NCBI GenBank assembly: GCA_021787595.1
Contig: JAJYLQ010000001.1
Coordinates: 186,001-250,000, forward strand
Source: Chloroflexota bacterium
Lineage (GTDB): Bacteria; Chloroflexota; Anaerolineae; Anaerolineales; Villigracilaceae
DNA: 64,000 nt
Direction: 5' to 3'
Below, piece after piece: positions 2,267 through 32,920 of this stretch. A program made the translations under genes and the position numbers. Every line of letters begins with the position of its first letter. Within the stretch, counting starts at the first letter, position 1. A model generated the notes under the pieces. The model saw only the letters and a program-made list of their open reading frames with translations, ran no database searches and was not told the DNA's origin.

Positions 2267-2299
2267 CATTTTCTGTCATCGCCAGCCATGATTCGCTTT

Positions 2300-2871: not shown

Positions 2872-2883
2872 ACAATACAGTGC

Positions 2884-2915: not shown

Positions 2916-2935
2916 AATTAGCGGTGTAATGTGCC

Positions 2936-3010
2936 GCGTGGCAATCTCCTGTTTGAAGGTTATCTGAGATTGCCGCGTCGTGGCGCCATGGCGCCACTCC
3001 TCGCAATGAC
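2936..3010. repeat. Dispersed palindromic repeat, family B (GGCAATCTCC / CTCGCAATGA)
   Basis: The stretch reads GTGGCAATCTCC ... GAGATTGCCGCGTCGTGGCGCC ATGGCGCCACTCCTCGCAATGA in pieces, with an inner GGCGCCATGGCGCC palindrome. The same modules in rearranged order occur at 42011-42095 and, in a short form, at 5790-5834. Confidence 0.7.
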
Positions 3011-3027
3011 AACTAATAATGAGTATT

Positions 3028-3139
3028 AATAATTGATGTTACGCGGTTTTCCTCCCTCATCCCCGGCCCTTCCCCCAAAAGGGGAAGGGAACCCCCTCCC
3101 ATAGGGAGAGGGGAGGGTGAGGGTGCGTAACATCAGTTA
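3028..3139. repeat. Composite MITE-like element carrying repeat A (copy A1)
   Basis: Outer inverted repeats (left TTGATGTTACGC at 3033-3044, right GCGTAACATCAG at 3125-3136) enclose the repeat-A core, CCCTCATCCCC ... GGGTGAGGG with inner GGGGAAGGG and CTCCC/GGGAG palindromes. The right end reaches the stop codon of the HAD gene. Seven cores of this kind occur in the window. Confidence 0.7.
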
Positions 3140-3793
3140 ATAAAGAAACTTTCGAAGATCGAAATCTGTCAGAGATTTCAGAATCAAATCTGCACCATCA
3201 ATTTTCAATAAAGATGTAGTCGGGTTTGGCACGGCCACAACGAAAATCCCGGCGGACTTCGCGGCCTTCACGCCGTTGGGCGAATCTTCGAAGACAATCG
3301 CCTCGTCCGCAGCAACACGTAATTCATGCAGCGCTCTGATAAACAAATCCGGATTCGGTTTGGTGCGGCCCGGCGCGACATCGTCGGCGCAGATGACCCT
3401 GTCGAAATGGCGGGCCAGCCCAAGCCGGGAAAGATGCGTATCCACCCACGAATGCGGCGAACTCGACGCGACGGCAAGTCTGATCGCGCGATGTTTCGCG
3501 TCGCGGATGAGATCAACGACACCGGGAAGAATCGGCTGGCGAAGGGTCTGCGCGTCGCTCTCCGACCTTTGACGGGCGCGCAGGTCATCGAGTTGGATCG
3601 CGTCCCCGGCCTGATCCCGCAAATGCTCCGCCGCGTCGAAGTTCGAAATGCCATAGCCGCCGACGATCTTTCCCCATTCGTCCTGCGGAAAAGGCAATCC
3701 ATATTCGGAATAGATTTTCCGCCAGGCTTGAACTTCCGGCGTTTCGGTGTCGAGAATCAAACCGTCGAAGTCGAAGATGAGGGCATGGATCAT
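3137..3793 (-). CDS. HAD family hydrolase (beta-phosphoglucomutase-like)
   Basis: A 218-residue HAD-superfamily hydrolase of subfamily IA. Motif I is DFDGLILDTE near residue 8 (nucleophile and acid/base Asp). Motif II is the SSS of VASSSPHSW, motif III the Lys of RTKPNPDLF, and motif IV EDSPNGVKAAKSAG. The cap lies between motifs I and II, as in beta-phosphoglucomutase and 2-deoxyglucose-6-phosphate phosphatases. The exact substrate cannot be read from sequence. The start at 3793 is only 2 bp after the stop of the upstream LLM oxidoreductase gene, so the two form an operon. The C-terminus abuts a palindromic composite element, which overlaps the stop codon. Confidence 0.9.
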   Translation of the reverse strand: MIHALIFDFDGLILDTETPEVQAWRKIYSEYGLPFPQDEWGKIVGGYGISNFDAAEHLRDQAGDAIQLDDLRARQRSESDAQTLRQPILPGVVDLIRDAKHRAIRLAVASSSPHSWVDTHLSRLGLARHFDRVICADDVAPGRTKPNPDLFIRALHELRVAADEAIVFEDSPNGVKAAKSAGIFVVAVPNPTTSLLKIDGADLILKSLTDFDLRKFLY

Positions 3794-3795
3794 TT

Positions 3796-4728
3796 TCAGT
3801 TTGCAAAATGCGGCATGATGTCCCAGACGAGACGCTCGAGCGTCTCGAAATCATTTTTGTATGCGCTCATGATGAAAAGCTGCGAGCCGATATCCTGATA
3901 GTGCCCAATCAAATCGGCGGCCTGCGCGACGGTGACAGCAAGGCCGCGAAACGGCTGAGGCGCTTCGAGACGTTCCATTTTGGCTTTGAGTTCGGCTTCG
4001 TTCCTGGCAATCAGCATCGCAGTCAGATTCGTGCGCTCGATGGTGTTGTAATCGCGGCCAGCCGCGTCACAATGTTTTTTCAGAACATCAAATTTCTTTT
4101 TGACGGTATCCGGGTCGCCAAAGATGTTGCAAACATCGCCCCAACGCGCGACGGCGCGTAACGTCAATTGCTCACCGCTTCCGCCGATCATGATGGGCGG
4201 ATGCGGCTTCTGCACCGGCTTCGGTTCGAGGATGGCATCTTTGATGTGGAAATATTTTCCGTCGAACGTTGCGCGCGGCTCGCGCCACATCGCGAGGGCA
4301 ATCTGAATTGCTTCTTCCATCTGAGCGATGCGGACGGCAGGCTTTTCGGGAAACTCCCAGCCGTATTGGTTGTATTCCTGAACGTTCCAGCCCGCGCCGA
4401 TTCCAAACGTGAGACGGCCATGGCTGATAATGTCCACGCCGGCCGCGATCTTTGCCAGATGTGCCGGGTTGCGATACGCCACTGAGGTAACCAGCGTTGC
4501 CAGCCGAATCTTGCTGGTGACCGCCGCCAGCGCCGCGAGCGTTGACCAGCCTTCCATGAACGGTTCGTCCGCTTCGCCGACGCCGCGGATCTGGATCAGA
4601 TGATCCATCAGCGAAAACCAACTGAAGCCGTGCATCTCCGCCCATTGCGCCTTGCGCTTGACTTCGTCGAAGATTTGATGCGGGTCCGAACCAAACAGCC
4701 ACGAGGGATTGTGTATGCCGAATTTCAT
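3796..4728 (-). CDS. LLM class F420-dependent oxidoreductase
   Basis: A 310-residue luciferase-like (TIM-barrel) oxidoreductase. MKFGIHNPSWLFGSDP opens the barrel. LAALAAVTSKIRLATLVTSVAYRNPAHLAK and GRLTFGIGAGWNVQEYNQYG are the two segments most typical of the F420-using subgroup, and PPIMIGGSGEQLTLRAVARW is the cofactor-binding C-terminal strand. By family it transfers hydride between F420H2 and an unknown substrate; the F420 preference is inferred, not shown. The ATG at 4728 has AGGAG 5 nt upstream and is preferred over the in-frame TTG at 4743. A TATAAT box (minus strand, 4754-4749) lies about 20 nt upstream of the start. The downstream partner is a HAD phosphatase. Confidence 0.9.
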   Translation of the reverse strand: MKFGIHNPSWLFGSDPHQIFDEVKRKAQWAEMHGFSWFSLMDHLIQIRGVGEADEPFMEGWSTLAALAAVTSKIRLATLVTSVAYRNPAHLAKIAAGVDIISHGRLTFGIGAGWNVQEYNQYGWEFPEKPAVRIAQMEEAIQIALAMWREPRATFDGKYFHIKDAILEPKPVQKPHPPIMIGGSGEQLTLRAVARWGDVCNIFGDPDTVKKKFDVLKKHCDAAGRDYNTIERTNLTAMLIARNEAELKAKMERLEAPQPFRGLAVTVAQAADLIGHYQDIGSQLFIMSAYKNDFETLERLVWDIMPHFAN

Positions 4729-4806
4729 GAGGTCTCCTGACAAATCATATTATAAGAGGGTTTGAAACAAAGGTGATCAAGCACTGAGCCAATTTCGGGA
4801 CTGTGA

Positions 4807-4842
4807 TTGACAGCCGTACAAAACCATGCTATTCTGTACGGC
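4807..4842 (+). promoter_or_regulatory. Toxin-antitoxin promoter with inverted-repeat operator
   Basis: A consensus -35 TTGACA (4807-4812), a 17-bp spacer and the -10 TATTCT (4830-4835, preceded by TG) form a near-ideal sigma-70 promoter. A perfect inverted repeat, GCCGTACA (4813-4820) and TGTACGGC (4835-4842), starts right after the -35 and covers the end of the -10. This is the layout expected for autorepression by the RHH antitoxin made just downstream. Confidence 0.8.
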
Positions 4843-4855
4843 AGAAGAGGCAACC

Positions 4856-5101
4856 ATGCAAGAGACAAAATTAACCATCCGCCTGCCGCGCGAACTGTTG
4901 GAAAATGCCAAGCGCTACGCCCGCCAGCAAAACACGACGCTGACCAAATTGGTCAGCGAATATTTGCAGCATATCCCTGCGTCTGACCCGACGCTCAATA
5001 ATGCGCCGCTCGTCCGCAAGCTTTCGGGCACGCTCTCGAACAAGGTTTCCATTGCCGATTACAAGAGGCATCTCGAAGAAAAATATGGCCGCAAAAATTA
5101 A
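4856..5101 (+). CDS. Antitoxin of a RHH/PIN module (DUF6364-like)
   Basis: An 81-residue protein. Residues 1-40 (METKLTIRLP-like opening MQETKLTIRLPRELLENAK, then RYARQQNTTLTKLVSEYL) form a ribbon-helix-helix DNA-binding unit. The C-terminal part, ending KRHLEEKYGRKN, would be the toxin-wrapping tail. The start at 4856 follows an AGAGG; a further in-frame ATG at 4826 lies inside the promoter and is rejected. The stop codon lies 17 bp inside the next gene, so antitoxin and toxin are translationally coupled. Autoregulation through the inverted repeat 14 bp upstream is inferred from the layout and from known RHH antitoxins such as FitA and VapB. Confidence 0.85.
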   Translation: MQETKLTIRLPRELLENAKRYARQQNTTLTKLVSEYLQHIPASDPTLNNAPLVRKLSGTLSNKVSIADYKRHLEEKYGRKN

Positions 5102-5504
5102 AGTGTTCTTCGATCTGAATGTTATTCTGGATGTGCTGCAAAAGCGGGAACGCTTTTACGAAACTTCGTCTCAATTGCTCGCCTGTGCAGAAACAGGGCG
5201 CATCCAGGGATTCGTCGCGCCCCATTCGCTAACGACTCTTTATTACCTGATTGCAAAGGATCAATCTCCCGCTAAAGCACGCGTGATGCTGACCAGCCTC
5301 CTGCAAATCCTTTCCGTTGCGGCCATTGACCAGTCCACAATTGAACAAGCGCTTAACCTGCCTTACCGCGATTTCGAGGATGCGGTGCAAATGATGGCAG
5401 CTGTGCAATGCAAAGCTGATTATCTCGTCACGCGCAATGTACGTGATTTCGAGCCTGCACCAATTTCGGTGATACAACCAAGCGAGCTGATTGCGCTGGT
5501 GTAA
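5085..5504 (+). CDS. PIN-domain toxin (VapC-like ribonuclease)
   Basis: A 139-residue PIN-domain protein, the presumed RNase toxin of the pair. Acidic residues expected at the active site are visible: Asp of FFDLNVILDVL near residue 9, Glu in RERFYETSSQLL, Asp of RDFEDAVQMMAA (about residue 98) and Asp of YLVTRNVRDFE near residue 122. By family it cleaves RNA with Mg2+ and is inhibited by the antitoxin. The start (ATG 5085) overlaps the antitoxin gene by 17 bp and lacks an own strong Shine-Dalgarno, as is usual in coupled pairs. The VIxVLxxRxxF opening is typical of the PIN subgroup paired with DUF6364 antitoxins. Confidence 0.88.
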   Translation: MAAKIKVFFDLNVILDVLQKRERFYETSSQLLACAETGRIQGFVAPHSLTTLYYLIAKDQSPAKARVMLTSLLQILSVAAIDQSTIEQALNLPYRDFEDAVQMMAAVQCKADYLVTRNVRDFEPAPISVIQPSELIALV

Positions 5505-5520
5505 AAGCGAAGACGACCAG

Positions 5521-5727
5521 ATGAAACAGTGCTTTTGGGATGTTTTCGCCACCGTCGAAGGAAAACAACCGCTTGTGTTCAAGGGAAAGCTAATGGACGG
5601 ATGCTGGTCAGAAGGATGCCTTGTGACCGCTGAAAGTAAAGAAAGTACGTTAGCCGAAACGGGAATAAAATATGGCATCACCATGTACTTGATGGAATAC
5701 AAGATTATTGCCCGAAAGAAGAACTAG
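5521..5727 (+). CDS. Small protein of unknown function downstream of the toxin
   Basis: A possible 68-residue protein from the ATG at 5521, 16 bp after the PIN toxin stop. It is read as MKQCFWDVFATVEGKQP...MYLMEYKIIARKKN, with three cysteine-free strands in the middle and a basic tail. The upstream GAAGACGA is a weak ribosome-binding site. It could be a third gene of the toxin-antitoxin operon or a chance frame; no family is recognised. A strong hairpin follows 32 bp after its stop. Confidence 0.45.
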   Translation: MKQCFWDVFATVEGKQPLVFKGKLMDGCWSEGCLVTAESKESTLAETGIKYGITMYLMEYKIIARKKN

Positions 5728-5759
5728 CAGTCTCGCCCCGAATCAATAACAACAAAATA

Positions 5760-5782
5760 GGACGGCAGATAATCTGCCGTCC
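5760..5782. terminator. Hairpin between the toxin-antitoxin operon and nuoN
   Basis: GGACGGCAGAT pairs with ATCTGCCGTCC around a 1-nt centre (a larger real loop). No good T-tract follows, so it may be a palindromic repeat with terminator-like action between two convergent units. Confidence 0.5.
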
Positions 5783-5789
5783 CAATAAT

Positions 5790-5834
5790 TTAAGTACGAG
5801 ATTGCCACGACACGCCTTGCGTGTCTCGCAATGA
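5790..5834. repeat. Dispersed palindromic repeat, family B (short copy)
   Basis: GAGATTGCCACGACACGC CTTGCGTGTCTCGCAATGA (in two pieces) matches the ends of the copy at 2936-3010. ACACGC/GCGTGT forms the inner hairpin. It abuts the nuoN stop codon at 5837. Confidence 0.65.
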
Positions 5835-5836
5835 TA

Positions 5837-7309
5837 TTAGAAGAGTTTCAACACTGCCTGACTTGCCCAATCAAACAATGGTGCGGGGACGAGGCTGACA
5901 ATTACTGTCAGCACTGCCGCCAATCCCCACGTGAGGTTGAGCCACGGTTCGCTGGTGGTTTCCGGTTCGCCCTCACGCATGTACATTGTCACGACCACGC
6001 GCAAGTAGTAGTAGGCGGAGATGAGCGAGGTCAGCACGCCAATGACGGCCAGCAGATAGAACTGCCCGGCAATGGCGGCGCGGAAGAGATAGAACTTGCC
6101 CACAAAGCCAAGCGTCGGCGGGATGCCAGTGAGCGAAAACATGAAGACCGTCATCGCCGCGGCGAGGGCGGGATGTTTTCGCCCAATGCCCGCGTAATCA
6201 GCAATCTCCAATCCGCGCTGCCCTGAGCCTGTCGAAGGGTTGCCTTCAGCTTTTTCAAGCGCGATCACAACCGCCCACGCGCCGAAGTTGGTCAGCGCGT
6301 AAGAGACGAGATAGAAAAGCCCAGCGGCAACGGAAGTCGCGACCACGCCTTTCTGTCCATACGGCACGAACGCCATCAGAATATAACCCGCGTGTGCAAT
6401 GCTTGAATAAGCCAGAAGCCGCTTGATATTCGTCTGCGCGATGGCGATTATATTTCCCACAATCATCGTCAACGCGGAGATGACCGCGATGATCGGGGTT
6501 ATGTCAGAAGCCAGTGAGGGAAATGCCAACGAGAAGACACGCAATAACGCGGCAAAGCCCGCGATCTTTGCGCCCGCAGCCATGAACGCCGTCACCGCAG
6601 AAGGCGCGCCTTGATACACATCGGGAGTCCACATGTGGAAGGGAACGGCCGCGACCTTGAAGCCGAGTCCGACCAGGATGAGGGCTGAGCCTATCGTAAG
6701 CAGGAGCAGGCTCGAGGTCCCGGATGATGCGGCATTCGCTGCGCTCACGATGCCAGCCAGGGAAGTGGTCCGCGTCGCGCCGAAGACCAGCGCAATCCCA
6801 TAAACAACAAATCCGGTCGAGAATGCGCCGAGCAAAAAATATTTGAGTCCCGCTTCCTCCGAATTGACATTGGGACGAGCGAAGGCGGCCAGCACGTAAA
6901 GCGGAATCGAAAGCATCTCCAGCGCAAGAAAGACGATGATGAGGTCGGCAGCTTGAGCCATCAGCATCATGCCGACGACGCTGAAGAGCAAAAGTGTGTA
7001 GTATTCGCCGCGTTCGATGCCCATGCGTTTGACATAACCGTACGCCAGCGCAATGCCAAACAGGCCGGAGACGAGGAGCAGCGCATTGACGAAGGTCGAG
7101 AAACCATCGAGAACAACCATGTTGTTAAAACTCGTCCCGGTGGCGCCGACCTGCGAAAGCGTGATGCCGAGTGAAATCGCCAGACCCAGCGCGGCAAGCA
7201 AGGCTGTGATGCCTTTGTTCTTGACGAAGAGATCAACCAGCAGAAGCAGGCACGCCCAAACCGTCAGAACGAGAAGCGGAAGAATGATAGAGAAATTGAG
7301 AGGTGGCAT
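5837..7309 (-). CDS. nuoN: NADH-quinone oxidoreductase subunit N
   Basis: A 490-residue, Mrp-antiporter-like membrane subunit of complex I, with about 14 hydrophobic helices; it carries one of the proton paths. Typical pieces are LALEMLSIPLYVLAA, GFKVAAVPFHMWTPDVYQGAP (the Lys and Pro of the broken helix) and SLTGIPPTLGFVGKFYLF. The start is the ATG at 7309 with GGAGG 7 nt upstream. A longer frame reaching 7360 merely translates repeat A and is rejected. Residues 356-364 (NPSTGSGQR) come from an inserted palindromic sequence in the loop between helices. It is the last gene of the nuo operon. Confidence 0.96.
   Translation of the reverse strand: MPPLNFSIILPLLVLTVWACLLLLVDLFVKNKGITALLAALGLAISLGITLSQVGATGTSFNNMVVLDGFSTFVNALLLVSGLFGIALAYGYVKRMGIERGEYYTLLLFSVVGMMLMAQAADLIIVFLALEMLSIPLYVLAAFARPNVNSEEAGLKYFLLGAFSTGFVVYGIALVFGATRTTSLAGIVSAANAASSGTSSLLLLTIGSALILVGLGFKVAAVPFHMWTPDVYQGAPSAVTAFMAAGAKIAGFAALLRVFSLAFPSLASDITPIIAVISALTMIVGNIIAIAQTNIKRLLAYSSIAHAGYILMAFVPYGQKGVVATSVAAGLFYLVSYALTNFGAWAVVIALEKAEGNPSTGSGQRGLEIADYAGIGRKHPALAAAMTVFMFSLTGIPPTLGFVGKFYLFRAAIAGQFYLLAVIGVLTSLISAYYYLRVVVTMYMREGEPETTSEPWLNLTWGLAAVLTVIVSLVPAPLFDWASQAVLKLF
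6219..6244. repeat. In-frame CCTGAGCCTGTCGAAGGG repeat inside nuoN
   Basis: On the plus strand, CCCTGAGCCTGTCGAAGGG lies within nuoN and encodes the NPSTGSGQ stretch on the minus strand, between ALEKAEG and GLEIADYAG. A related sequence, CCCTGAGCAGAGGTCGAAGGG, lies inside the kinase-like gene at 56083. This GTCGAAGGG palindrome is a known kind of dispersed repeat in Chloroflexota genomes (recalled, not checked). Confidence 0.65.
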
Positions 7310-7375: not shown

Positions 7376-8902
7376 TTATCTCATTGCCAGCGCGGCGGCC
7401 TGGAAGGCGGCGGTGAGCTTGTCCACGGACGGGGCCATCAAGTGGAAAAACGGCGCGGGATAAAGGCCAATCCAGAAGATGAAAATCAGCAGCGGGACAA
7501 TCGTAACGATTTCGCGCCAGTTCAAATCGCGCAAAGCATGACCATGCTTCCTGACTTCTTCCACGATGGAACCTTCCGGGCCCATGAACATTTTTTGGAA
7601 CATGTACAAAATATAAACCGCGGCCATGATGACGCCCAGCGCAGCAAAGCCTGCATACCACGGCGAGTTGAGAACCGTCGAGCCGAACGCGCCGAGCAAA
7701 ATCGTGAACTCGCCGACAAAGCCATTCAAGCCGGGCAAGCCCATCGAAGAAAGCGAAACGATGAGGAAGATCGTGCCGAAGATCGGCGTGACCTTCCACA
7801 ATCCGCCATAGACTTTGAATTCGCGCGTGTGCGTCTGCTCGTAGATCATGCCGACCAGCAGGAACAATGCGCCCGTGCTGAGTCCATGATTGATCATCTG
7901 CAAAATGCCGCCTTGAATTCCCTGCGGATTGAGGGCGAACAGACCCAGCATGACGAAACCAAGATGGCTGACAGATGAATACGCAACCAGTTTTTTGATG
8001 TCTGCTTGCGCGTACGAAACTGCCGCGCCATAAATGATCCCGATCACGGCCAGTACCGCGATCACCGGCGCGGCCTGGACTGCGGCCTGCGGGAACAGGG
8101 TCAGATTGAAGCGCAGGAAGCCGTACGTTCCCATCTTCAGCAAAACGCCTGCCAGAATGACAGAACCAGCGGTCGGGGCCTCGACGTGGGCATCGGGCAG
8201 CCACGAATGGAGCGGCCACATCGGGACTTTGATCGCGAACGCGGCAGCGAAGGCAATGAACAGCCACAACTGCGTGTGCGGGTCAATGCCGCCTTTGGCG
8301 ATCAAATCGGGAACCGAGAATGTGCCCTGATAAATTCCGAGCCACAAGATCGCCAGCAGCATCAGGATCGAACCGGCCATCGTATAAAGGAAGAACTTGA
8401 GCGCGGCATAGATGCGGCGCGGTCCGCCCCAGATGCCGATCAGGAAATACATTGGGACGAGGGTAAACTCCCAGAAGATGTAGAAGAGGAATAAATCCTG
8501 CGCGAGGAATACGCCCGTCATGCCGACTTCGAGCAGTAGGAAGAACAGCAAAAATTCCTTGACGCGTTCTTCGACCGCTGTCCACGTGGAAAGGATGGAA
8601 ATCGGCGAGAGGAACGTCGTCAGCAAAACGAGGAGGATGCTGAGTCCGTCTATGCCCAGATAATATTGAATGTTCCACCCGGCGACGGTGATCCAATTGT
8701 ATTTGGCGACCAGCTGCAAATCCGGATTGGAGGCGTTGAACATCGTCAGCACCCAGATCGAAATCAAGAACGTGATGAGCGATGCGATGAGCGCCGTCCA
8801 ACGCAGGGCATTTTTCTTGTCGCCTGGAATGAACAACAAAACAAGCACGCCCAAAAGCGGGAAGAAGGTCATGAGCGTGAGGGGTTGGAGGATAAATTCC
8901 AT
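7376..8902 (-). CDS. nuoM: NADH-quinone oxidoreductase subunit M
   Basis: A 508-residue antiporter-like membrane subunit of complex I. Hallmarks are LLLEVGMTGVFLAQDLFLFYIFWEFTLVPMYFLIG (the Glu of the first conserved helix), AFAIKVPMWPLHSWLPDAHVEAPT, SSVSHLGFVMLGLFAL and INHGLSTGALFLLVG. These carry the Lys and Glu residues of the proton channel. Length is normal. The start ATG at 8902 begins MEFILQPLTLMTFFP. Repeat A copies fill both flanking gaps, 66 bp towards nuoN and 63 bp towards nuoL, leaving little room for other signals. Confidence 0.97.
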   Translation of the reverse strand: MEFILQPLTLMTFFPLLGVLVLLFIPGDKKNALRWTALIASLITFLISIWVLTMFNASNPDLQLVAKYNWITVAGWNIQYYLGIDGLSILLVLLTTFLSPISILSTWTAVEERVKEFLLFFLLLEVGMTGVFLAQDLFLFYIFWEFTLVPMYFLIGIWGGPRRIYAALKFFLYTMAGSILMLLAILWLGIYQGTFSVPDLIAKGGIDPHTQLWLFIAFAAAFAIKVPMWPLHSWLPDAHVEAPTAGSVILAGVLLKMGTYGFLRFNLTLFPQAAVQAAPVIAVLAVIGIIYGAAVSYAQADIKKLVAYSSVSHLGFVMLGLFALNPQGIQGGILQMINHGLSTGALFLLVGMIYEQTHTREFKVYGGLWKVTPIFGTIFLIVSLSSMGLPGLNGFVGEFTILLGAFGSTVLNSPWYAGFAALGVIMAAVYILYMFQKMFMGPEGSIVEEVRKHGHALRDLNWREIVTIVPLLIFIFWIGLYPAPFFHLMAPSVDKLTAAFQAAALAMR

Positions 8903-11098: not shown

Positions 11099-11401
11099 TT
11101 ATCCCTTGAGGTTGTTCATTTCATCAATGTTGATGCTGTGCTTCGTGCGGAAGATCGCCACGATCAAAGCCAGGCCGACCGCCACCTCCGCCGCCGCGAC
11201 CGTCATCACGAAGAAGACGAAGATCTGGCCTTCGAGAATCTGATACACGCGCGTGAACGCAACGATTGCGAGGTTGGCCGCGTTCAACATCAACTCAATG
11301 GACATGAAAATGATCAGCGGGTTGCGGCGGACCAACACGCCCAATGCGCCGATGGTAAAGAGGATGGCTGAAAGAGCAATGTAATAATTTATAGGAATCA
11401 T
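11099..11401 (-). CDS. nuoK: NADH-quinone oxidoreductase subunit K
   Basis: A 100-residue, three-helix membrane subunit of complex [41 protein letters not shown] contains (in pieces) the conserved Glu pair of helices 2 and 3, and [20 protein letters not shown] is the last helix. Length is exactly that of the family. It overlaps nothing but sits 3 bp before nuoL, so those two are coupled. Upstream, however, a 263-bp composite repeat separates it from nuoJ, which is unusual because nuoJ and nuoK usually abut. Confidence 0.97.
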
Positions 11402-13824: not shown

Positions 13825-16298
13825 GCCCTCACTGAAACTTTTTTGGCGGCCTTCAGGCTGGCCTCGGCCGGAGCGGAAATGGGCAATCCCATCGAGCGCG
13901 GCACCAGCACCACGCCGGTCGAGATCGTTTCATCAATCTTCACGACCACGTCTTCGCTGACGCCGTCGAGACTCAGCTTCACACGCTCGCCCGCCTCGAC
14001 GCCGAGCTGTTCCGCGGCGGATGGATGCAGCGCGACGAACGCCTCGCCGATTCTTTGATTCAACAATTTTGCGGATTCGACCGTCACGCCGCGATCATAG
14101 AGTTTGGTGACGGGAACTGCCAGCAATTTCTTTTCCTTCGGACGAAGTTCTTCCACTTTCTGGACCCGAGGCAGGGTGAACTTTTCCGAACGGTCCGCGG
14201 CGCTCGACAATTGGACGCCCAGGCCAAACTTGTTCTCATAGGTCGTGCCTCCGTAATACAAATCGCCGCGTCCGACAATTGGCCGCTGAGGTTTGACCTC
14301 CGCGAGTTTTGCGTAATTCAAACCCGCAAACGATTTGATATCTTCGGCAAGGATGTCAAACACGACGGATGCCGATGTGCCTTCGAGAATGACGCTCGCC
14401 TGCCTTGCAACTTGCGACGTGATCGCGAAATCGGGCCTGGTCCCGTCCAGCGCGGGAACCGCCGGATAGAAGCGCTGGACGCGCCGCTCACCGGATGTGA
14501 ACGTGCCTTCGCGTTCGGTGTAAGCCTGTGCGGGCAGAACAACATCCGCAAGTTTCGCTGTTTCGGTTTCGAACAAATCCTGTGCGATGACGAATTCCGT
14601 GCCGTGAAGAGCCCTCACCAGCGCGGGATCATCACCCGCAGGGTCCGCGCCGACCACGTAAACCGTCTTGCCTTTGAGCGCGCCCACCAGATTTTCTTCG
14701 GGGCGGAAACCAATTTCCCACGCGCCCTGATCATTTGCGCGCTGCCAAACGCCGATCAAGCCGTTGTTCGGTTTGCCAGCATGTTCCGTGTCATTTAGCG
14801 CGCGGGCGCAAGCCGTAGCCAGCGCTGTCGAACCGTCGAGGCCAAGACCATCGCTTCCGAACAAGATTACAGCATTCTCGGCCTTGGCAAAGGCATCGCC
14901 GACCTTGCCTTTCTTCGTCAGGTCGTGAACGGTCCTGACTTCATCGCCATAAGAATAGCGGATCACAAAGGATGCGTAGCGATCAAGCTTGGTCTCGCGC
15001 GGGTTGGCGACGATCAACGCTGCGCCGCGCTGGACCGCCTGCTTGACTCGCAAATACCAGACTGGCGCTTCTTCATATAAATCAGATGCGACAACCACAA
15101 TGGTGGTGCCTGCGCCCATTGCTCCGAAATTCGTCCCCTGCCCAACGCCGACCAGTGAAACCAGATCGCCGCCGCCCATGTGAGTGTACAAAACCGCCTT
15201 ACCTTCAACCTGGTCGGCAAATGATTTCAAGTTGAACAAATCCTCGTTCGACAATCGTCCCGAAGCCAACACAACCAAATCTTTTTTGGCTTTGGCGATC
15301 GCTTCGCCCGCGGCTTGAGTCGCCGCATCCCATGAAGCGCGTGATAATTTTCCATCCTTGCGGATCAGCGGCTTGCTCAAACGCTTTTCACTTTCCGCGT
15401 AGTGATAAGCGAAGCGGCCCTTGTCGCACATCCAAATCTCGTTGACTTCCTCATTCTGCCGCGGCATCACGCGCTTGATGACGATCTTGCCGTCGCTCAT
15501 CGCCTCGCGGCGCGTGTTGAAGGTGATGTTGCAGCCCACCGGGCACTGCGAGCAGATCGAAGCGGACGAACTCAATTCCCACGGACGCGCGCCAAAGCGG
15601 AAGTCCGCCGTGGTCAGCGCGCCGACGGGACAAATGTCGGTGGTGTTGCCCGAGAAAACGGAATCAAATCCCGGGTCCGATAAGGAGACGATCTGGGTCG
15701 AGCGGCCGCGCTCGTCGAAGCCAAGCACCGCATCGCCCGCGACCTCATCCTGAAAACGAATGCAGCGCGCACACTGGATGCAGCGTTCCTGGTCGAGATA
15801 GATCAATTCGCCAAGCGGGACCATTTTGGCGAGATGCATTTTCTCGTCAAATAAGAAGCGGCTCTTTCCCGGACCGTAAGCCATCGTCAGGTTCTGAAGC
15901 GGACACTCGCCGCCCTTGTCGCAGATCGGGCAGTCGAGCGGATGAGACGTGAGCAAAAATTCAATCGTGCTTTTTTGTCCTGCTTCGGCCTTCTCGGATT
16001 GTGTGTAAACCACCATTCCCTCCGAAACGGGATTGGTGCACGCCGTTTCGAGCTTGGGCAAAAACTGTAATTTGGGTTCGCCCTTATCATCGAGGATCGG
16101 CTTGCCCGTGGTGCGATCCATCACCGGACGCCCAATCTCGACGAGGCACATGCGGCACATGCCGACCGGTTCCATTTTTGGATGATAGCAAAAGACTGGA
16201 ATATCAATTCCTGCTTCTTTCGCAGCATCCACCACCAGCATTCCATCAGGAACGGTGACTTGCTTTCCATCTATCGTTAGCGTTACCTGTTTCGTCAT
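13821..16298 (-). CDS. nuoG: NADH-quinone oxidoreductase subunit G
   Basis: An 825-residue iron-sulfur subunit. Its N-terminus has a [2Fe-2S] ferredoxin domain (CYHPKMEPVGMCRMC...C near residue 38), a His/Cys [4Fe-4S] site (HPLDCPICDKGGECPLQ, about 105-120), a second site (CIQCARC...CPVGAL) and the ICSQCPVGCN entry to the molybdopterin-oxidoreductase-like domain. The latter has lost its cofactor in this family. The ATG at 16298 (MTKQVTLTIDGKQVTVPDG) is chosen, since the upstream frame to 16331 only translates repeat A. It overlaps nuoH by 4 bp. Confidence 0.96.
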   Translation of the reverse strand: MTKQVTLTIDGKQVTVPDGMLVVDAAKEAGIDIPVFCYHPKMEPVGMCRMCLVEIGRPVMDRTTGKPILDDKGEPKLQFLPKLETACTNPVSEGMVVYTQSEKAEAGQKSTIEFLLTSHPLDCPICDKGGECPLQNLTMAYGPGKSRFLFDEKMHLAKMVPLGELIYLDQERCIQCARCIRFQDEVAGDAVLGFDERGRSTQIVSLSDPGFDSVFSGNTTDICPVGALTTADFRFGARPWELSSSASICSQCPVGCNITFNTRREAMSDGKIVIKRVMPRQNEEVNEIWMCDKGRFAYHYAESEKRLSKPLIRKDGKLSRASWDAATQAAGEAIAKAKKDLVVLASGRLSNEDLFNLKSFADQVEGKAVLYTHMGGGDLVSLVGVGQGTNFGAMGAGTTIVVVASDLYEEAPVWYLRVKQAVQRGAALIVANPRETKLDRYASFVIRYSYGDEVRTVHDLTKKGKVGDAFAKAENAVILFGSDGLGLDGSTALATACARALNDTEHAGKPNNGLIGVWQRANDQGAWEIGFRPEENLVGALKGKTVYVVGADPAGDDPALVRALHGTEFVIAQDLFETETAKLADVVLPAQAYTEREGTFTSGERRVQRFYPAVPALDGTRPDFAITSQVARQASVILEGTSASVVFDILAEDIKSFAGLNYAKLAEVKPQRPIVGRGDLYYGGTTYENKFGLGVQLSSAADRSEKFTLPRVQKVEELRPKEKKLLAVPVTKLYDRGVTVESAKLLNQRIGEAFVALHPSAAEQLGVEAGERVKLSLDGVSEDVVVKIDETISTGVVLVPRSMGLPISAPAEASLKAAKKVSVRA

Positions 16299-27273: not shown

Positions 27274-27792
27274 TCAACGCGTCCAGACAAAAGTCATCAG
27301 CTGTTCTCCCGTCGTCGCATCCAACACTACATCAAACTCATTACTTGTTGCGTGAGGACCATTCGGCGATCCAACGGACTGCGAATAAACTCCCACATAC
27401 GTCACAATCCAGACCAATCGTGGATTGAGAAATGTTGGATCAACTTTTTCCCCGGCTTGAGCAGAGGATCGCAATAGTAGGTTGCCAAGTCGGCCCAAAT
27501 TTGCAGTGATACCAATTAGGCTTTTGGTATATTGCAAATTTGGAAACTGCTTATTTGCTGCGTCAATGGCTTGGTCTCTCGAGATGATAGTTTGAGTGAT
27601 TGTGGCTGGGTCAACAGGCTCGAATGTCCAATTCTCCTTTGCTAAATCCTGTTTTAATACGTTTCCATCTGGAAGATTGGATTGGGCCAGGGCCGGGGTT
27701 AATTTGTTAGCATAGGCGTGTCCCAAAAACCACCCTATACCAGCCAGGATTACCAAAACGCCAATCAATATTAATACGGTTTTCTTTTGCAT
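27274..27792 (-). CDS. Membrane-anchored protein with PepSY-like C-terminus
   Basis: A 172-residue protein with one N-terminal membrane helix (MQKKTVLILIGVLVILAGIGWFLGHAYANK, in pieces) and an exterior domain. The end, LVWIVTYVGVYSQSVG...NEFDVVLDATTGEQLMTFV, resembles the PepSY fold, in which the 'DATTGE' hairpin is typical. PepSY domains inhibit peptidases or sense periplasmic signals. SRDQAIDAANKQFPN is a second PepSY-like helix. AGGAG lies 8 nt before the ATG at 27792, which favours it over the ATG at 27798. It follows the frameshifted exported gene on the same strand and may be in one transcript with it. Confidence 0.65.
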   Translation of the reverse strand: MQKKTVLILIGVLVILAGIGWFLGHAYANKLTPALAQSNLPDGNVLKQDLAKENWTFEPVDPATITQTIISRDQAIDAANKQFPNLQYTKSLIGITANLGRLGNLLLRSSAQAGEKVDPTFLNPRLVWIVTYVGVYSQSVGSPNGPHATSNEFDVVLDATTGEQLMTFVWTR

Positions 27793-27838: not shown

Positions 27839-28505
27839 TCATTGTGTCCAGTTATCTTCCCAAGTATCTGGGTAAGTAAAGCCAGCGCTGGCATGATAGG
27901 AAGTCCCCGGGGATACATATATTGACAAGCTGTTTGTGTTCACCTGAAACCAGCCAGACCCATCTTGAAAACTGAGGTCGGTCATTCGGAAATGTGACGT
28001 TCCAGTGCCACCAAGCTGAATAGACGTGTCGGTTGTTTCACCAAAATACTGCTCATCGGATGTTGTAGTGAAACCAAGTGTACTTGTAGAAGCACAATCT
28101 TTCTGTGTGCCATCAATGTATCCGCACCAATAAATACTAGATCGCTGGATTTTATATTCGTGGACGTTACTATTGATAGTACCGTAGGTGAAACGACAGT
28201 AATTACCACATCCATTCCAATATTCAACGAAATAGGATGGGGCGCTATCTGATGATGTTCTTAAGCCACCCTGCTTGAATGTAAGCGCTTGACCCTCCTG
28301 CCATAACCCATTCCGTGGAGAAACCGCCTGATACTGGAACATTGGGATTGCCATAAGGGAGGCGAGCCGAGACCCCGGTCGCTGATGACGCATAATCATG
28401 GTATCCTGCAAAGTAGTTGCCTGCGGCCTTAACTGGGGTAATACTGCCAATTACAAAACCAACCAACAATGCAAGCACCATTGAGAAAAGCAAACGCCAA
28501 CGCAT
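27839..28505 (-). pseudogene. Exported protein gene with a single-base frameshift
   Basis: Two frames on the minus strand join into one protein of about 221 residues. The first (from ATG 28505) has a signal peptide, MRWRLLFSMVLALLVGFVIG...PVKA, then AGNYFAGYHDYASSATGVSARLPYG. It stops at 28245. The second frame continues the same kind of sequence from about 28262: RTSSDSAPSYFVEYWNGCGNYCRFTYG and so on to SAGFTYPDTWEDNWTQ at 27839. Removing one base in TGGCTTAAGA near 28262 restores one reading frame (AGW-LRTSSD). Two Cys pairs suggest an extracellular, disulfide-bonded domain; no family is recognised. AGGAG precedes the start. The break may be a true mutation, an assembly error or, less likely, a recoding site. 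Confidence 0.65.
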
Positions 28506-28512
28506 GTTATGC

Positions 28513-28637
28513 ACTCCTTTCGCAGTAGAGAAACATTTAACCACCTCTTTCACTCTACTCCTTTTGGAGTCGTTTGTCACTGGAATTAATACCAGTTCTT
28601 TTCCTGGGAATTATTCGAGGTTGTCAGACAAACGACG
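28513..28637 (-). promoter_or_regulatory. Duplicated leader, copy 1 (in front of the frameshifted exported gene)
   Basis: This stretch matches 31603-31730 over about 120 bp. Read on the minus strand it holds, in order: the last codons of a response-regulator gene (CTGACAACCTCGAATAA), a near-palindrome CTGGTATTAATTCCAG, a -35-like GTGACA, a 17-bp spacer with the dyad ACTCC-AAAA-GGAGT, a -10-like TAGAGT, and the ribosome-binding site. No regulator gene precedes it here, so this copy is the derived one. Confidence 0.75.
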
Positions 28638-28639
28638 CG

Positions 28640-28917
28640 GCCGCGATTTCCAAAGAAAATTCCCGGAATTCACAAAATCAGTCTGGAGTTTCCCGGCTGA
28701 ATCTGCAAAAAAGATCGGACACCCTGCGCCGTTTCTAGCTGAGCTGCCGTATCGTTTGATTCAACTTTATACATTCTCAAATGAAATTATTCTTGATCCG
28801 TTTATGGGATCAGGCCAAACCGCGCTGGCGGCGATAAAGGCGAACCGGCATTATGTGGGATATGAAACGAATGAAGAATATTTAGTACTGGCACAAAAGC
28901 GAATCCGTCAGAAGTGA
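28640..28917 (+). pseudogene. DNA methyltransferase, C-terminal fragment
   Basis: About 92 residues of the end of a site-specific DNA methyltransferase (N4-cytosine/N6-adenine type, beta class). VWSFPAESAKKIGHPAPF and ELPYRLIQLYTF precede the AdoMet-binding motif DPFMGSGQTALAA, followed by YVGYETNEEYLVLAQKRI. The DPPY catalytic motif and the target-recognition domain, which should lie upstream, are missing. The frame begins exactly where the duplicated leader ends, so the fragment was cut at that junction. No start codon or ribosome-binding site fits, so it is unlikely to be expressed. It is presumably the relic of a restriction-modification or orphan methylase gene. Confidence 0.8.
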
Positions 28918-28932
28918 TGATTCTTCAGCCCA

Positions 28933-30084
28933 TCAATTTCGGTACTCCAAAAGCAAATAATCTCGGCCAACCCAATCGCTTGGCAGATTATACGTTTTGA
29001 TAATATTCCCATCAGGCGTTATCAAAAATACGCGACTATGTGTGCCGATTAGGAAATTATCTCCGAAGGGAGAGATTATGAAAGTTGCATCGGCTTCATT
29101 CTTTAGAAAATCTTCCGGGTTTATCACTGGCTTAAGTGTGGACATATTTATCAACATGGCTGGCGCTGGACCCTCACAAGGGCATCTTCTACTGTAATAC
29201 CATATGCCGTGATATTGATACTGTTTGGCAGTTTGTGTTGAATAAGTTAATGCATCGGAATTGGATATGGGGATAGAAAGAGTAATTTTTTGTGTCTGTA
29301 AATCAAAAACGTCCAAAATATTAGTATAAGTCAGTGTTATGCTGTTGCCAACAGGCTCCAAATATAAATGTCTTATATCTTGGTCAACAGCGATGAAAAA
29401 CCATTCTCCTTCCAATGGGACGCTCAATATCTTTTCCTCCACGATCCCAGAATCAGTATTGACAAGAAATACTTTTATTTGCTTGCTTCCATTTTGAAGA
29501 AGGCCGTTTGTGCTGATTGCGGCAATCTTGGAATCTTTTGTTTCAATAAAATCTAATATATGGCTTTTAAGATCAGCAATTGTTTTTATGGAGAAATCGT
29601 TTTGAACAACGCTGATTTTTCCGTTGGCTGTGGATAAAATCAACTTACCCTGAACTATGCTTGCCATTCCTGGCCCCAATCCACCAATAAATGACGAAGG
29701 GTCGAGAATTTGAACTTGACTTTTCTCGAGATTAACTTTTGCAAGGTATTGCCCTGTACTTCCGCTTAAAAGTGCATAGAATGTCGAATTATTGTCGTAG
29801 TATGCGAAACCAATCCGGAGCGGATGTTGTAAGGGATCATTAGCCTGCTTGATCTCGCTACCAAGATCGAGATCATGGAAACAACTCGAATCATCTAGGC
29901 AATTGAAATGCAATGTAGAGCCATCTAGGTAAATAGCTGCGATTGGAATGGGGGCCGCCGTGGTTTTGTCTAATGGACTCCTATTGCTAAATTCAGTAAA
30001 AAAAATGAAACCCGCGGCAATAACCAACAAGATGCCAGTTATTGGAAGAATGAAATTAATTAGGTATTTGTTCATTGTTAACAT
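28933..30084 (-). CDS. Membrane-anchored extracellular protein, possibly beta-propeller-like
   Basis: A 383-residue protein with an N-terminal membrane anchor (YLINFILPITGILLVIAAGF, about residues 7-29) and a large exterior domain. The domain has repeated short strands of the kind GKLILSTANGKISVVQND, KIAAISTNGLLQNGS and FLITPDGNIIKTYNL, which suggest a WD40/YVTN-like propeller, but no specific family is recognised. A RRCPCEGPAPAML segment carries a Cys pair. The start may be 30084 or, 9 nt further on, 30075; neither has a clear Shine-Dalgarno. A 13-bp hairpin (30105-30156) lies between it and the amidase gene upstream, on the same strand. The gene is AT-rich compared with the nuo operon. Confidence 0.6.
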   Translation of the reverse strand: MLTMNKYLINFILPITGILLVIAAGFIFFTEFSNRSPLDKTTAAPIPIAAIYLDGSTLHFNCLDDSSCFHDLDLGSEIKQANDPLQHPLRIGFAYYDNNSTFYALLSGSTGQYLAKVNLEKSQVQILDPSSFIGGLGPGMASIVQGKLILSTANGKISVVQNDFSIKTIADLKSHILDFIETKDSKIAAISTNGLLQNGSKQIKVFLVNTDSGIVEEKILSVPLEGEWFFIAVDQDIRHLYLEPVGNSITLTYTNILDVFDLQTQKITLSIPISNSDALTYSTQTAKQYQYHGIWYYSRRCPCEGPAPAMLINMSTLKPVINPEDFLKNEADATFIISPFGDNFLIGTHSRVFLITPDGNIIKTYNLPSDWVGRDYLLLEYRN

Positions 30085-30104
30085 CCGGTATCTCGACTAA
30101 AATA

Positions 30105-30156
30105 CACCGCCTTTGCCAATTTCAAGTATAGATTCAGAATCTCGGCGAAGGCGGTG
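30105..30156 (-). terminator. Long hairpin between amidase and membrane-anchored protein genes
   Basis: CACCGCCTTTGCC (30105-30117) pairs with GGCGAAGGCGGTG (30144-30156), one G-U pair, around an inner AGATTC-A-GAATCT hairpin. On the minus strand GTATTTTAG follows, a weak T-tract. It is a terminator or a stable RNA structure between two same-strand genes. Confidence 0.5.
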
Positions 30157-30226
30157 AGTCTGAGAAAAAACTTGGAAAAGGTTTATGCTGCATTATTTAG
30201 GAACAACCTCCTTCTAGGTCGAGCCG

Positions 30227-31597
30227 TTAATGAAACAGATTATCGGCGATGTGCCAAAAATACTGAAGTGTTGGGAAGGAACCCAAATATGCATTCTTTC
30301 TATCATTTGTATGTCCGCTAAAGTAAGGCACAGCTCCTATCTGCGTGACCATTACAACATGCCCAGCCCCATGATTCCTCCCTCCAGCAGGATAGTAACT
30401 ATCCGTTATGAGATCGCCTAACTGTAAGGAACCGGCACTAGCGTATTGAGTAGTCGCACCCCAAGTATTGTCTAGCCAATAAAATAGTCCCTGTGGGCTT
30501 GAACTGTAGCCAGAAACTCTCCAGCCATACGTTCCGGGTGAAGGAGTGAAATTCCAAATGGTGTCTGTTGGAAATCCACCCTGCCTCAGAGCTTGGGATA
30601 TATAATCTGCACAATCATTGCATGTTTGCGTGGTATATGTCCAAACATTTTTGTAGGCAGCAAGTTGATTATAGTAGGAGGTATCCATATAATATGTTCC
30701 GCCATACGTACAAGTTTTGGATACGTTGGCTCCAACATAAGTATAAGCGTAATTACTGGCAGATGTTCGACCGTAGGTAAAACTCGAAGTGACTACTAAA
30801 GGCGATGGCCCTCCATCTGATTTTATGTAATCATCTAGTAATTGTTTCCCCAGAACATCAATCGGTGTATGATACAGTTTATATCCGAACATCCGTGTAA
30901 AGTCGGGCTTTGTCCTGACAGGGCCATCCTTTACCCAAGATACATTGTCAACCCCATTTTCATTGTCAATCTCTCTATCAGTAAATTCGTCTTTAGTAAA
31001 TTGTGGTTGCCCACCTTTCAAACTTATATCAATGCTATGATGTATTCTAAATGTAGTTTCTGCGCCGTTGGAAATTGAATAATTGACTGCATTGGTCGTG
31101 CTTGTGATGTACCGCTCTAGGGCCTGCTTTACATTCTCATTTTCAGTATTAGATATTGCCCAGCGAGCGGCAGGAATCATAGGATAATCATCCGATTGAC
31201 TAAAATTTGGATAACCAAACGTTGTTACTGTTTCCTCCAATTCAATATGAAATGTGTCGGTCGTTGCGATGACTTGAGCAGTTTCCATGGAAAACATTGA
31301 ATTTATGGATATCAGGTTAGTATGCATCCCAATGCTATAGAATTCCCTGTAGTAATTCCTTCGCTCCTGAATTAAAGCAGCCATGGGGCCTGAGTAAAAT
31401 GATGGACGCGAAGTCTCGCCTATATTCAGTTGCTGGCTGTAATCGGCCAGCATTGTTTTTATGTTGTCAGGGACATTGCCAACAGGCAGGACTTGTCGCG
31501 GTCTTGTAAAGCCGCTCGTTATAGTAAAGACAAATGCCGCCAGAAGAAACATCTTTACGAGCGACAAAATGCCTTTGGTCGTTAGGTTGTATTTCAT
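30227..31597 (-). CDS. Exported protein with C-terminal amidase (Amidase_6/NlpC-P60-like) domain
   Basis: A 456-residue exported protein. After a signal peptide (SLVKMFLLAAFVFTITSGFT, about residues 12-31) comes a poorly conserved domain of about 240 residues. Then follows a domain with YYNQLAAYKNVWTYTTQTCNDCADYISQALRQGGFPTD...W. The Cys of CADYISQAL and the His of GAGHVVMVTQIG match the nucleophile and His of the Amidase_6 (DUF-type 'putative amidase') family, which is related to NlpC/P60 peptidases. Such enzymes cut amide bonds in peptides or peptidoglycan stems; the substrate here is unknown. AAAGGAG lies 6 nt before the ATG. The leader is the second copy of the duplicated control region. 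Confidence 0.8.
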   Translation of the reverse strand: MKYNLTTKGILSLVKMFLLAAFVFTITSGFTRPRQVLPVGNVPDNIKTMLADYSQQLNIGETSRPSFYSGPMAALIQERRNYYREFYSIGMHTNLISINSMFSMETAQVIATTDTFHIELEETVTTFGYPNFSQSDDYPMIPAARWAISNTENENVKQALERYITSTTNAVNYSISNGAETTFRIHHSIDISLKGGQPQFTKDEFTDREIDNENGVDNVSWVKDGPVRTKPDFTRMFGYKLYHTPIDVLGKQLLDDYIKSDGGPSPLVVTSSFTYGRTSASNYAYTYVGANVSKTCTYGGTYYMDTSYYNQLAAYKNVWTYTTQTCNDCADYISQALRQGGFPTDTIWNFTPSPGTYGWRVSGYSSSPQGLFYWLDNTWGATTQYASAGSLQLGDLITDSYYPAGGRNHGAGHVVMVTQIGAVPYFSGHTNDRKNAYLGSFPTLQYFWHIADNLFH

Positions 31598-31602
31598 TGC
31601 AA

Positions 31603-31730
31603 ACTCCTTTTGTGGTAGTAGAGAAATGTGTGGCCACCACTTTCACTCTACTCCTTTTGGAGTCGTTTGTCACTGGAATTAATTCTAGTCTTCGACTGGG
31701 AATTATTCGAGGTTGTCAGGCAAATTTTTG
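31603..31730 (-). promoter_or_regulatory. Duplicated leader, copy 2 (between response regulator and amidase)
   Basis: The original-looking copy: it starts within the last codons of the response-regulator gene and runs to the amidase ribosome-binding site. It has the same parts as copy 1: palindrome core GAATTAATTC, -35-like GTGACA, a 17-bp spacer with ACTCC-AAAA-GGAGT and -10-like TAGAGT. The constant parts are more alike than the adjoining coding sequences. Confidence 0.75.
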
Positions 31731-32344
31731 TGTGCCCAAGCCACGGCCGCCTGGCGCGAACGGACTTCCAGTTTTTCCAGAATATTTGTGACATGGTAGG
31801 CAACTGTTTTGGATGTGATTCCTATGGCTTTTGCGATATCCGCGTTGCTCAAGCCCTCCGCCAGCAGCCTCAGGATATCCTGTTCGCGTTTCGTCAGGCT
31901 TTTCCACTTTCGACCGTCGGTCGCCTGCCAGTGGAGCACCCGCCCCATTTGTTCCTGTGTAAAGAGGCTCTCGCCGCCTGCCGCGCGGCGGATGCCAGCG
32001 ATCAGGTCCTCGGCACACTGGCTTTTCGTGAGAAAACCCGCCGCGCCCGCCTCCATCATGCCCACCAGGTAGAAATCGCGGTCGTGCATGGTCAATATAA
32101 GCGTCACGGTTTCGGGGTAATGGGCGCGTGCCCATTCGTGGACTTCGAATGCGGAAAGCCCCGGCATTTTGAGATCGAGCAAGAGAATGTCCGGGTGCAA
32201 TTCTGCGACCATCTTCTGCGCTTCGGTTCCATCCTGCGCTTCGCCGACGGTTTGCATATCCGCGGCCTGTTCGAGGATGGAGCGAATGCCTGAGCGGGCA
32301 ACGGGATGGTCGTCTGCGATCAGGACGGTAATCTTCTCATCCAT
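31703..32344 (-). CDS. NarL/LuxR-family response regulator
   Basis: A 213-residue response regulator. The receiver domain (1-120) has the acidic pair in VLIADDHPVARSGI, the phospho-acceptor Asp in DILLLDLKMPG near residue 55, Thr/Ser of LILTMHD and Lys of FLTKSQ. The GerE/LuxR helix-turn-helix (about 148-205) reads LTKREQDILRLLAEGLSNADIAKAIGITSKTVAYHVTNIL. No sensor kinase gene lies in the window, so it is an orphan here. The ATG at 32344 has GGGAG 4 nt upstream and a TACAAT box about 27 nt before it. It may act on the duplicated leader just downstream (inference). Confidence 0.92.
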   Translation of the reverse strand: MDEKITVLIADDHPVARSGIRSILEQAADMQTVGEAQDGTEAQKMVAELHPDILLLDLKMPGLSAFEVHEWARAHYPETVTLILTMHDRDFYLVGMMEAGAAGFLTKSQCAEDLIAGIRRAAGGESLFTQEQMGRVLHWQATDGRKWKSLTKREQDILRLLAEGLSNADIAKAIGITSKTVAYHVTNILEKLEVRSRQAAVAWAHKNLPDNLE

Positions 32345-32460
32345 TTTCTCTCCCTTGTTTATGAAAAACAATTGTAGCAGCCGGTTGCTGAACACGACTG
32401 TACCAATTTTACCTTATGAAACTACCCCTGGAGGCCGCATTTCATTTCGGTTAACCCTAG

Positions 32461-32466
32461 TATAAT
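32461..32466 (+). promoter_or_regulatory. -10 box directly before yqeY (leaderless candidate)
   Basis: TATAAT is followed by exactly 7 nt and the ATG at 32474, so transcription should begin at or next to the start codon. No clear -35 is seen. Confidence 0.6.
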
Positions 32467-32473
32467 GATCCCC

Positions 32474-32920
32474 ATGGACATCAAAACTCAACTGACCGAA
32501 GCCATGAAGCAGGCCATGAAATCCCGCGACGAAGTCGGCAAGCGGACGACGCGCATGGCGCTGGCAAACATCAAACAAGCGGAAGTGGATAAGCAGATCA
32601 CGCTCGACGATGCGGCGGTCATCTCGTTATTGCAGAAGGAGATCAGGAATCGCCGCGAGGCCGTGGAGGAGGCAAAGAGGGCCAACCGCCCCGATTTGAT
32701 CGCGGACAACGAAGCTGAGATCAAAGTGATCGAAGCCTTCCTGCCAAAAGCCATGAGCACGGACGAACTGCGCGCGCTGGCGCAGGCCGCGATTGCCGAG
32801 ACGGGCGCGGCCTCGCAATCCGACATGGGCAAGGTGATGAAGGCGCTGATGCCCAGGGTCGCGGGACGCGCCGCGGGCGATCAGGTCAGTGCGGTGGTGA
32901 AGGAATTGCTGACGAAGTAG
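32474..32920 (+). CDS. GatB/YqeY domain-containing protein
   Basis: A 148-residue YqeY-type protein, homologous to the C-terminal tRNA-binding tail of GatB. The pattern MDIKTQLTEAMKQAMKSRDEVGKRTTRMALANIKQAE opens the helical N-terminal half (in pieces), and SDMGKVMKALMPRVAGRAAGDQVSAVV is the conserved end. The stand-alone protein's task is unknown; binding to tRNA or the amidotransferase is assumed by homology. An ATG at 32465 is in frame but lies inside the -10 box, so 32474 is preferred. It is followed by a 76-bp gap with a GAACCGCGA/TCGCGGTT hairpin before pgpH. Confidence 0.9.
   Translation: MDIKTQLTEAMKQAMKSRDEVGKRTTRMALANIKQAEVDKQITLDDAAVISLLQKEIRNRREAVEEAKRANRPDLIADNEAEIKVIEAFLPKAMSTDELRALAQAAIAETGAASQSDMGKVMKALMPRVAGRAAGDQVSAVVKELLTK

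Follow-up and report, generated by a model that had tools for sequence, protein, structure and literature searches.

Response regulators (RRs) of the NarL/FixJ type join a receiver to a GerE domain, use inverted-repeat half-sites near position −42 and have a target gene beside the regulator. In orphan cdiA-CT/cdiI and rhs-CT arrays, the repeated remnant encodes part of the delivery protein, and orphan modules are regarded as silent, as a store or as retained for immunity (PMC4927057). Here we analyze a locus that resembles both, in a 64,000-nucleotide stretch (the window, part of contig C41) of the draft genome of a Chloroflexota bacterium of the Anaerolineales. A direct repeat of ~120 bp at this locus carries the 3′ end of a NarL/FixJ-type RR gene and heads sets of genes for exported proteins. 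We find that the locus is probably an array of exported-protein cassettes under RR control, which grew by tandem duplication and then underwent turnover of its cargo. A literature search returned no paper on this combination of regulator and promoter cassette in Anaerolineae or Chloroflexi.

An ungapped search placed the left copy of the repeat at 28524-28632 and the right copy at 31617-31724 in direct orientation, as two ungapped blocks of 89% identity each whose start-to-start offset is 3093 and then 3092 (a 1-nt indel). Whole-genome BLAST with the left copy returned the right copy at 85% identity over 120 bases (E 5.9e-33), which excludes a chance origin of the pair. The original prediction, made from the letters alone, of two ~120-bp direct copies ~3093 bp apart is thus borne out, and so is its account of their content: CTGACAACCTCGAATAA is found in both copies and forms the 3′ end of the regulator in the right one, the left copy runs into a 3′ methyltransferase fragment that lacks the 5′ part, and between the copies lie this remnant, a membrane-anchored protein and an exported amidase. 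The regulator had been called LuxR-type, which is right for its GerE/LuxR-type helix-turn-helix; the protein is a response regulator with a receiver domain and not an autoinducer-binding LuxR (Pfam Response_reg 3.7e-24, GerE 1.3e-20), and it retains the phospho-acceptor Asp (LLLDLKMPG). This Asp is replaced in two array RRs of relatives, by E in VFEPS (L039, G055) and by G in LLLGMETPG (L091, G005), and RRs that have lost it may be kinase-independent.

The repeat is not private to this pair. The source genome has five copies: the window pair, two on contig C10 that are 2.2 kb apart, returned by the BLAST search, and a related one on contig C3, which a covariance model added. Within the family, 21 of 152 genomes had a match (E ≤ 0.01), with 36 matches in all. 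In a class-wide sample of 396 genomes, 10 had a match (E ≤ 1e-5); three of these belong to other families, each with a single copy. Among named public records, the core pattern is nearly confined to metagenome assemblies of Anaerolineales/Anaerolineae, and viral contigs gave no match.

Alignments of 15 and then 34 copies, from the source genome and 18 relatives (19 genomes), revealed a common anatomy. Each copy leads from the last RR codons through three half-sites over the stop codon to a −35/−10 pair and, nearly always, to a signal-peptide gene. The half-sites are regularly spaced in the pattern CCAG-N8-CTGG-N8-CCAG (columns 22-25, 34-37 and 46-49 of the family alignment) and overlap the RR stop codon. 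The alignment contains an inverted repeat of 13 pairs across the stop codon, with 80% of cells paired, and a second one, ACTGG-N8-CCAGT, with 96% paired. Both window copies, here termed P_A (left) and P_B (right), have sigma-70-type −35 and −10 hexamers at an accepted spacing of 16-18 nt (GTGACA-17-TAGAGT). The −10 hexamer starts 22-24 nt past the third half-site in all 34 copies (22 nt in 25 of them), and 33 of the 34 pass a fixed-position test with at least 4/6 matches at −10 and at least 3/6 at −35, compared to 3% of random places with the same geometry, the copies being homologous and hence not 34 independent promoter tests. The spacer between the hexamers is only 46-61% conserved, and a plain consensus promoter scan of the region alone gave nothing above shuffles. 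The single copy of G328 (L131), from another family of the class, is laid out alike: its inverted repeat is nearly perfect and its hexamers read GTGACA-17-TAGGAT. A small leader open reading frame (ORF) in the repeat (ORFs 31467-31673 and 28245-28580, with a common N-terminus) was considered and rejected; its frame begins at the GTG of the −35 box, and the promoter explains it.

Several features suggest that the half-sites are an operator. If transcription starts 7 nt past the −10 hexamer, the second inverted repeat is centered at about −42, the usual site for an activator touching RNA polymerase at −35. Half-sites differ between loci in a concerted manner (CCAG/CTGG/CCAG, CTAG/CTAG/CTAG, ATAG/CTAT/ATAG and ACAG/CTGT/ACAG), as expected for a protein operator; in 20000 shuffles of distinct triples, 4 gave as good a match as observed, with no correction for relatedness. 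Additionally, in some RRs the stop codon is shifted and the encoded tail altered while the predicted operator is retained, which points to conservation of the DNA and not of the peptide. From position, conservation and concerted change, we infer that the RR binds the half-sites and activates the next promoter.

The repeat would then be the operator-promoter of the adjoining RR in copied form, with a predicted operator that begins inside the RR stop codon. Centered ~42 bp ahead of the expected transcription start, the two half-sites closest to the −35 would hold the position of an activator, and the RR would most likely activate the gene after its own. Because the operator overlaps the stop codon, the RR 3′ end would always be in the copy, and an extra gene set that obeys the RR would need a copy of the promoter and so carry the RR 3′ tip. 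Extra sets would be made by tandem duplication, through short-homology recombination, of the segment from the 3′ end of a convergent neighbor (a DNA methyltransferase here, lon in a sister genus) to the 3′ end of the RR gene, leaving both flanking genes whole and a junction at which the RR tip is joined to the neighbor tip. Afterwards the cargo would diverge, be exchanged or decay, and the promoters in one array would remain alike. In the source genome a rearrangement would have cut the array, taking the full methyltransferase to C10 and leaving the RR beside yqeY.

The junctions bear directly on this scheme. Behind an RR gene we find 19 of the 34 copies (one of these RRs is cut by a contig end and one has a frame break), and the remaining 15 are orphans. 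Of the 15 orphans, 11 are joined in antisense to the 3′ end of lon and two to that of the methyltransferase; the other two adjoin neither gene end. At every fused junction the RR tip and the neighbor tip face away from each other. Across orphan junctions the RR tip ranges from ~14 to 270 nt (~22 nt, 28632-28611, in the left window copy) and the neighbor tip from ~17 to 150 codons. At least six genomes repeat the unit between two 3′ ends in tandem, and no two of the lineages examined have the same junction. The two junctions that could be compared base by base with both parents (G170 and G055) have 4-5 nt in common at the crossover. Read from the sequences, this form of junction is the signature of tandem duplication from one gene's 3′ end into another's, which leaves both genes whole and one tip of each per duplication.

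Relatives provide the empty single-copy state at both kinds of site. In the sister genomes G002 and G005, yqeY and pgpH come right after the methyltransferase. In genus g8, G012, G205 and G081 lack the element at lon and have an SDR gene and pepP immediately behind it, and in G170, G055, G184, G185 and G203 an array or a single cassette plus RR lies between lon and SDR. The original prediction had held that relatives with an intact methyltransferase and no repeat would count against it; G002 and G005 do have this arrangement at this site, which documents the empty state and leaves the repeat itself standing. Its suggestion of duplication is supported by the tandem units, the lineage-specific junctions and these empty sites. 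The module thus arrived at least twice, at different sites, each time between two co-directional genes and convergent with the first. In L096 (G199), an orphan promoter with cargo lies between lon and SDR, and no RR gene is left at the locus. The methyltransferase-yqeY site of L095 (G003) holds another insert of 5.8 kb (1139-6942), without the promoter element, that encodes an alpha/beta-hydrolase-like protein and repeat-rich exported proteins.

The methyltransferase remnant in the window covers Pfam N6_N4_Mtase profile positions 132-221 of 221, with DNA homology beginning at ~28644. It is 85-87% identical in DNA to the C10 copies versus 75-76% to the sister-species orthologues, and was therefore duplicated in this lineage. 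In the C10 locus (L006), the full methyltransferase (5149-6132, +) comes first, followed by a pair of genes for exported proteins (−), promoter copy C and a truncated RR (−). Next come the 3′ half of a methyltransferase (8274-8729, +), a second pair of exported-protein genes (−), promoter copy D and a lipoprotein gene, and last a methyltransferase tail (11287-11385, +) and another lipoprotein gene. The window has the matching order of methyltransferase tail (+), cargo (−), promoter and RR (−). In the source genome the ancestral order cobA-cyclase-methyltransferase-yqeY-pgpH is interrupted at the array, with the methyltransferase side on C10 adjoining mutS2 and the yqeY side on C41, where the sequence beside it lies ~95 kb away in G002. 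The array thus sits at breakpoints of a chromosomal rearrangement, which plausibly came about by recombination between array copies.

Table. Array features in the window (P_A and P_B, left and right repeat; A and B, the cargo sets behind them).
Feature	Coordinates	Strand	Details
NarL/FixJ-type RR	31703..32395	−	Response_reg and GerE domains; likely start ATG 32344; last codons and stop overlap the predicted operator
Right repeat (P_B)	31603..31730	−	RR 3′ tip, operator, promoter and leader of cargo 31597; model match 31637-31720, 75 bits
P_B operator half-sites (predicted)	31673..31699	−	CCAG 31699-31696, CTAG 31688-31685, CCAG 31676-31673; family alignment
P_B promoter (predicted)	31645..31673	−	GTGACA (31673-31668), 17 nt, TAGAGT (31650-31645)
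Left repeat (P_A)	28504..28632	−	Orphan RR 3′ tip, operator, promoter and leader; model match 28544-28628, 86 bits
P_A operator half-sites (predicted)	28580..28607	−	CCAG 28607-28604, CTGG 28595-28592, CCAG 28583-28580; family alignment
P_A promoter (predicted)	28552..28580	−	GTGACA (28580-28575), 17 nt, TAGAGT (28557-28552)
Cargo B1	30227..31597	−	Exported protein, signal peptide, Amidase_6 domain
Cargo B2	28933..30084	−	Membrane-anchored protein, no Pfam match
Cargo A1	27839..28505	−	Exported protein, signal peptide from ATG 28505; two overlapping ORFs (28245-28580, 27839-28450)
Cargo A2	27274..27792	−	Membrane-anchored PepSY-domain protein
N6/N4 DNA methyltransferase 3′ remnant	28633..28917	+	No start, indels
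yqeY homologue	32465..32920	+	Right flank; directly 3′ of the intact methyltransferase in sister genomes

The gene behind the element begins 113-258 nt from the element start in nearly all 34 copies and, judged by hydrophobicity, encodes a product with a signal peptide or a lipoprotein signal. Exceptions are G002, one of the G168 copies and G171, which has no cargo ahead of lon. Few of the 61 cargo proteins received a Pfam name, and these include Amidase_6, DUF2690, PepSY, MucB/RseB- and LolA-like, Ig-like and beta-propeller proteins, as well as an ABC transporter ATPase closest to lantibiotic-protection transporters. In two loci (L039:11010-14824 and L090:6208-10031), a small exported beta-rich protein precedes ABC transporter genes closest to the lantibiotic-protection type, and a bacteriocin-like role is possible for this set. 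The frame of cargo A1 is broken near 28250, either naturally or by an assembly error. A PDB sequence search with the Amidase_6 protein gave no match, and predicted structures were too poor for fold searches (pLDDT 48 for one cargo protein and 35 for the amidase). A glycoside hydrolase identity for one C10 cargo was dropped, as Pfam gives it no support. We also rejected an anti-phage defense island; PADLOC matches were few, with one member each, mostly of ATPase type, and are attributed to the cargo ABC ATPase.

The same cargo recurs at different array positions. One cargo pair is adjacent to the RR in G086 and G203 and behind an orphan promoter in G170, the ABC-transporter set is orphan-driven in G055 and RR-linked in G170, and one family is RR-linked in G168 and orphan-driven in G005, a different genus. 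Within one array, promoters average 86% identity though their cargo differs; compared between genomes, promoters heading the same cargo reach 66%, as against 67% for unrelated pairs. The promoter therefore tracks the resident RR and the cargo has a separate history. New cargo may come in through homologous exchange at the promoter repeats or through other, illegitimate events. Two cargo genes of L088 (G168; 2191-2463 and 14663-15694) are 86% alike over the signal peptide only and unrelated beyond it, as if the mature part had been swapped.

A number of points weigh against the array scheme. Binding of the RR to P_A and P_B is a prediction. The half-site shuffles are uncorrected for relatedness. 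Duplicated units have promoter and flank tips in common and mostly not the cargo; since adjacent cargo sets are mostly unrelated, plain duplication must then be joined by a later step of replacement or capture, which no locus shows in progress. C10 copy D and the G005 orphan have no recognizable neighbor tip, and the G086 junction contains a 10-nt stretch of unclear origin. The G086 array (L037) additionally lies upstream of lon despite lon 3′ tips at its junctions, requiring an extra rearrangement or a lost lon copy. Finally, the genomes compared are mostly draft metagenome assemblies.

Different origins of the repeats and their cargo can be envisaged. Homologous recombination with DNA of related cells, for example by single crossover through the RR 3′ end and promoter, might have brought the cargo, with tandem duplication in a minor part. 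Such exchange would account for cargo families found at different array positions, for the two G168 genes and for a G005 orphan with ~240 nt of RR sequence and no neighbor tip. However, between genomes, promoters in front of shared cargo resemble each other only at background level, so that cargo did not visibly travel with its promoter, and recurrent fusion to a neighbor's 3′ end is what tandem duplication predicts; we consider exchange as the main route possible but rather unlikely. The other origin offered by the original prediction was att-type insertion, for which a site-specific recombinase would have placed a mobile element or cassette at the RR 3′ end. It fits repeats that flank a unit and contain a gene 3′ end. 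This origin is very improbable given that the junction points vary between copies and lineages, with 4-5 nt of microhomology at the two compared base by base, that a fused neighbor 3′ end is not expected from att recombination and that the repeat is a promoter that varies between genomes with the resident RR; the viral contigs, as noted, have no match. As the original prediction had noted, no integrase is visible in the window array, and we found no recombinase among the array ORFs examined. The nearest candidate lies ~114 kb from the C10 array: a partial integron-type integrase at the very start of C10 (C10:6-197, L132), truncated there by the contig edge, with a match over 64 residues that scores 122 bits and falls short of the family cut-off. 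No integron integrase above the family cut-off was found in the genome, and an integron may lie beyond the C10 contig end.

The repeat could also be read as something other than a working promoter. Both inverted repeats could form in RNA, and the RR transcript might contain hairpins that exclude each other, as an attenuator or riboswitch-like leader does; this is improbable, as the conserved −35/−10 lies downstream of the hairpins at a near-fixed distance, so that RNA started there would lack them, the operator position fits an activator and Rfam has no match in the window. Equally doubtful is the notion of decaying, functionless relics of segmental duplication. Broken units do occur (the methyltransferase remnant, the frame break in cargo A1 and the G171 promoter without cargo), yet most orphan cargo genes are intact and orphans are as well conserved as RR-linked copies (tip 0.87 vs 0.89, operator 0.79 vs 0.79 and −10 0.89 vs 0.79). 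An assembly artefact might be suspected in a draft genome of 63 contigs with the array halves on two of them, but both arrays sit far from the ends of long contigs (266 and 148 kb), identical stretches between copies are short and independent assemblies show the architecture again, making this explanation extremely unlikely.

The RR-controlled array would explain repeated duplication of a gene's 3′ end without a mobile element, since the end of the RR gene doubles as the control site of the next gene. If the RR drives every copy, exported proteins are joined to an existing sensory circuit by duplication alone. We tentatively suggest that the RR 3′ end is perhaps a built-in docking point for adding or swapping exported-protein sets under one sensor with no dedicated recombinase, a self-organizing regulon for surface or intercellular interactions. 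The operator also offers a search handle for many uncharacterized exported proteins of Anaerolineales, and its three concerted half-sites make regulator-operator co-evolution directly testable.

Among known systems, the orphan arrays of contact-dependent inhibition (CDI) and Rhs proteins (PMC4927057) are closest in form. Both they and this locus are tandem, variable exported-protein modules in varying order, each behind a remnant of a resident gene. Here, however, the remnant is a predicted operator-promoter, so each module is expected to be expressed under regulation. We identified neither a toxin domain nor an immunity pair, recognized no transposase or integrase in the window array and saw no full-length cdiA or rhs gene among the array genes examined (Pfam scan of the 61 cargo proteins). 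Integron arrays likewise have exchangeable cassettes with one short repeat each. We rejected integron cassettes, given that the only integrase is distant and partial and the repeat is at the wrong cassette end: unlike in integrons, the array has no adjoining integrase, its repeats are promoters that head the cassettes at the 5′ end, and its variable junctions are fused to neighbor 3′ ends. Microhomology of 4-5 nt, whole flanking genes and one remnant per duplication are as in ordinary tandem duplication by short-homology recombination, which differs in that here adjacent cargo is mostly unrelated and promoters within an array are alike. In its domains, half-sites near −42 and target next door, the regulator resembles other NarL/FixJ-type RRs with an adjacent target promoter; it departs from that norm in a predicted operator that overlaps its own stop codon and in operator copies that head further sets of exported proteins.

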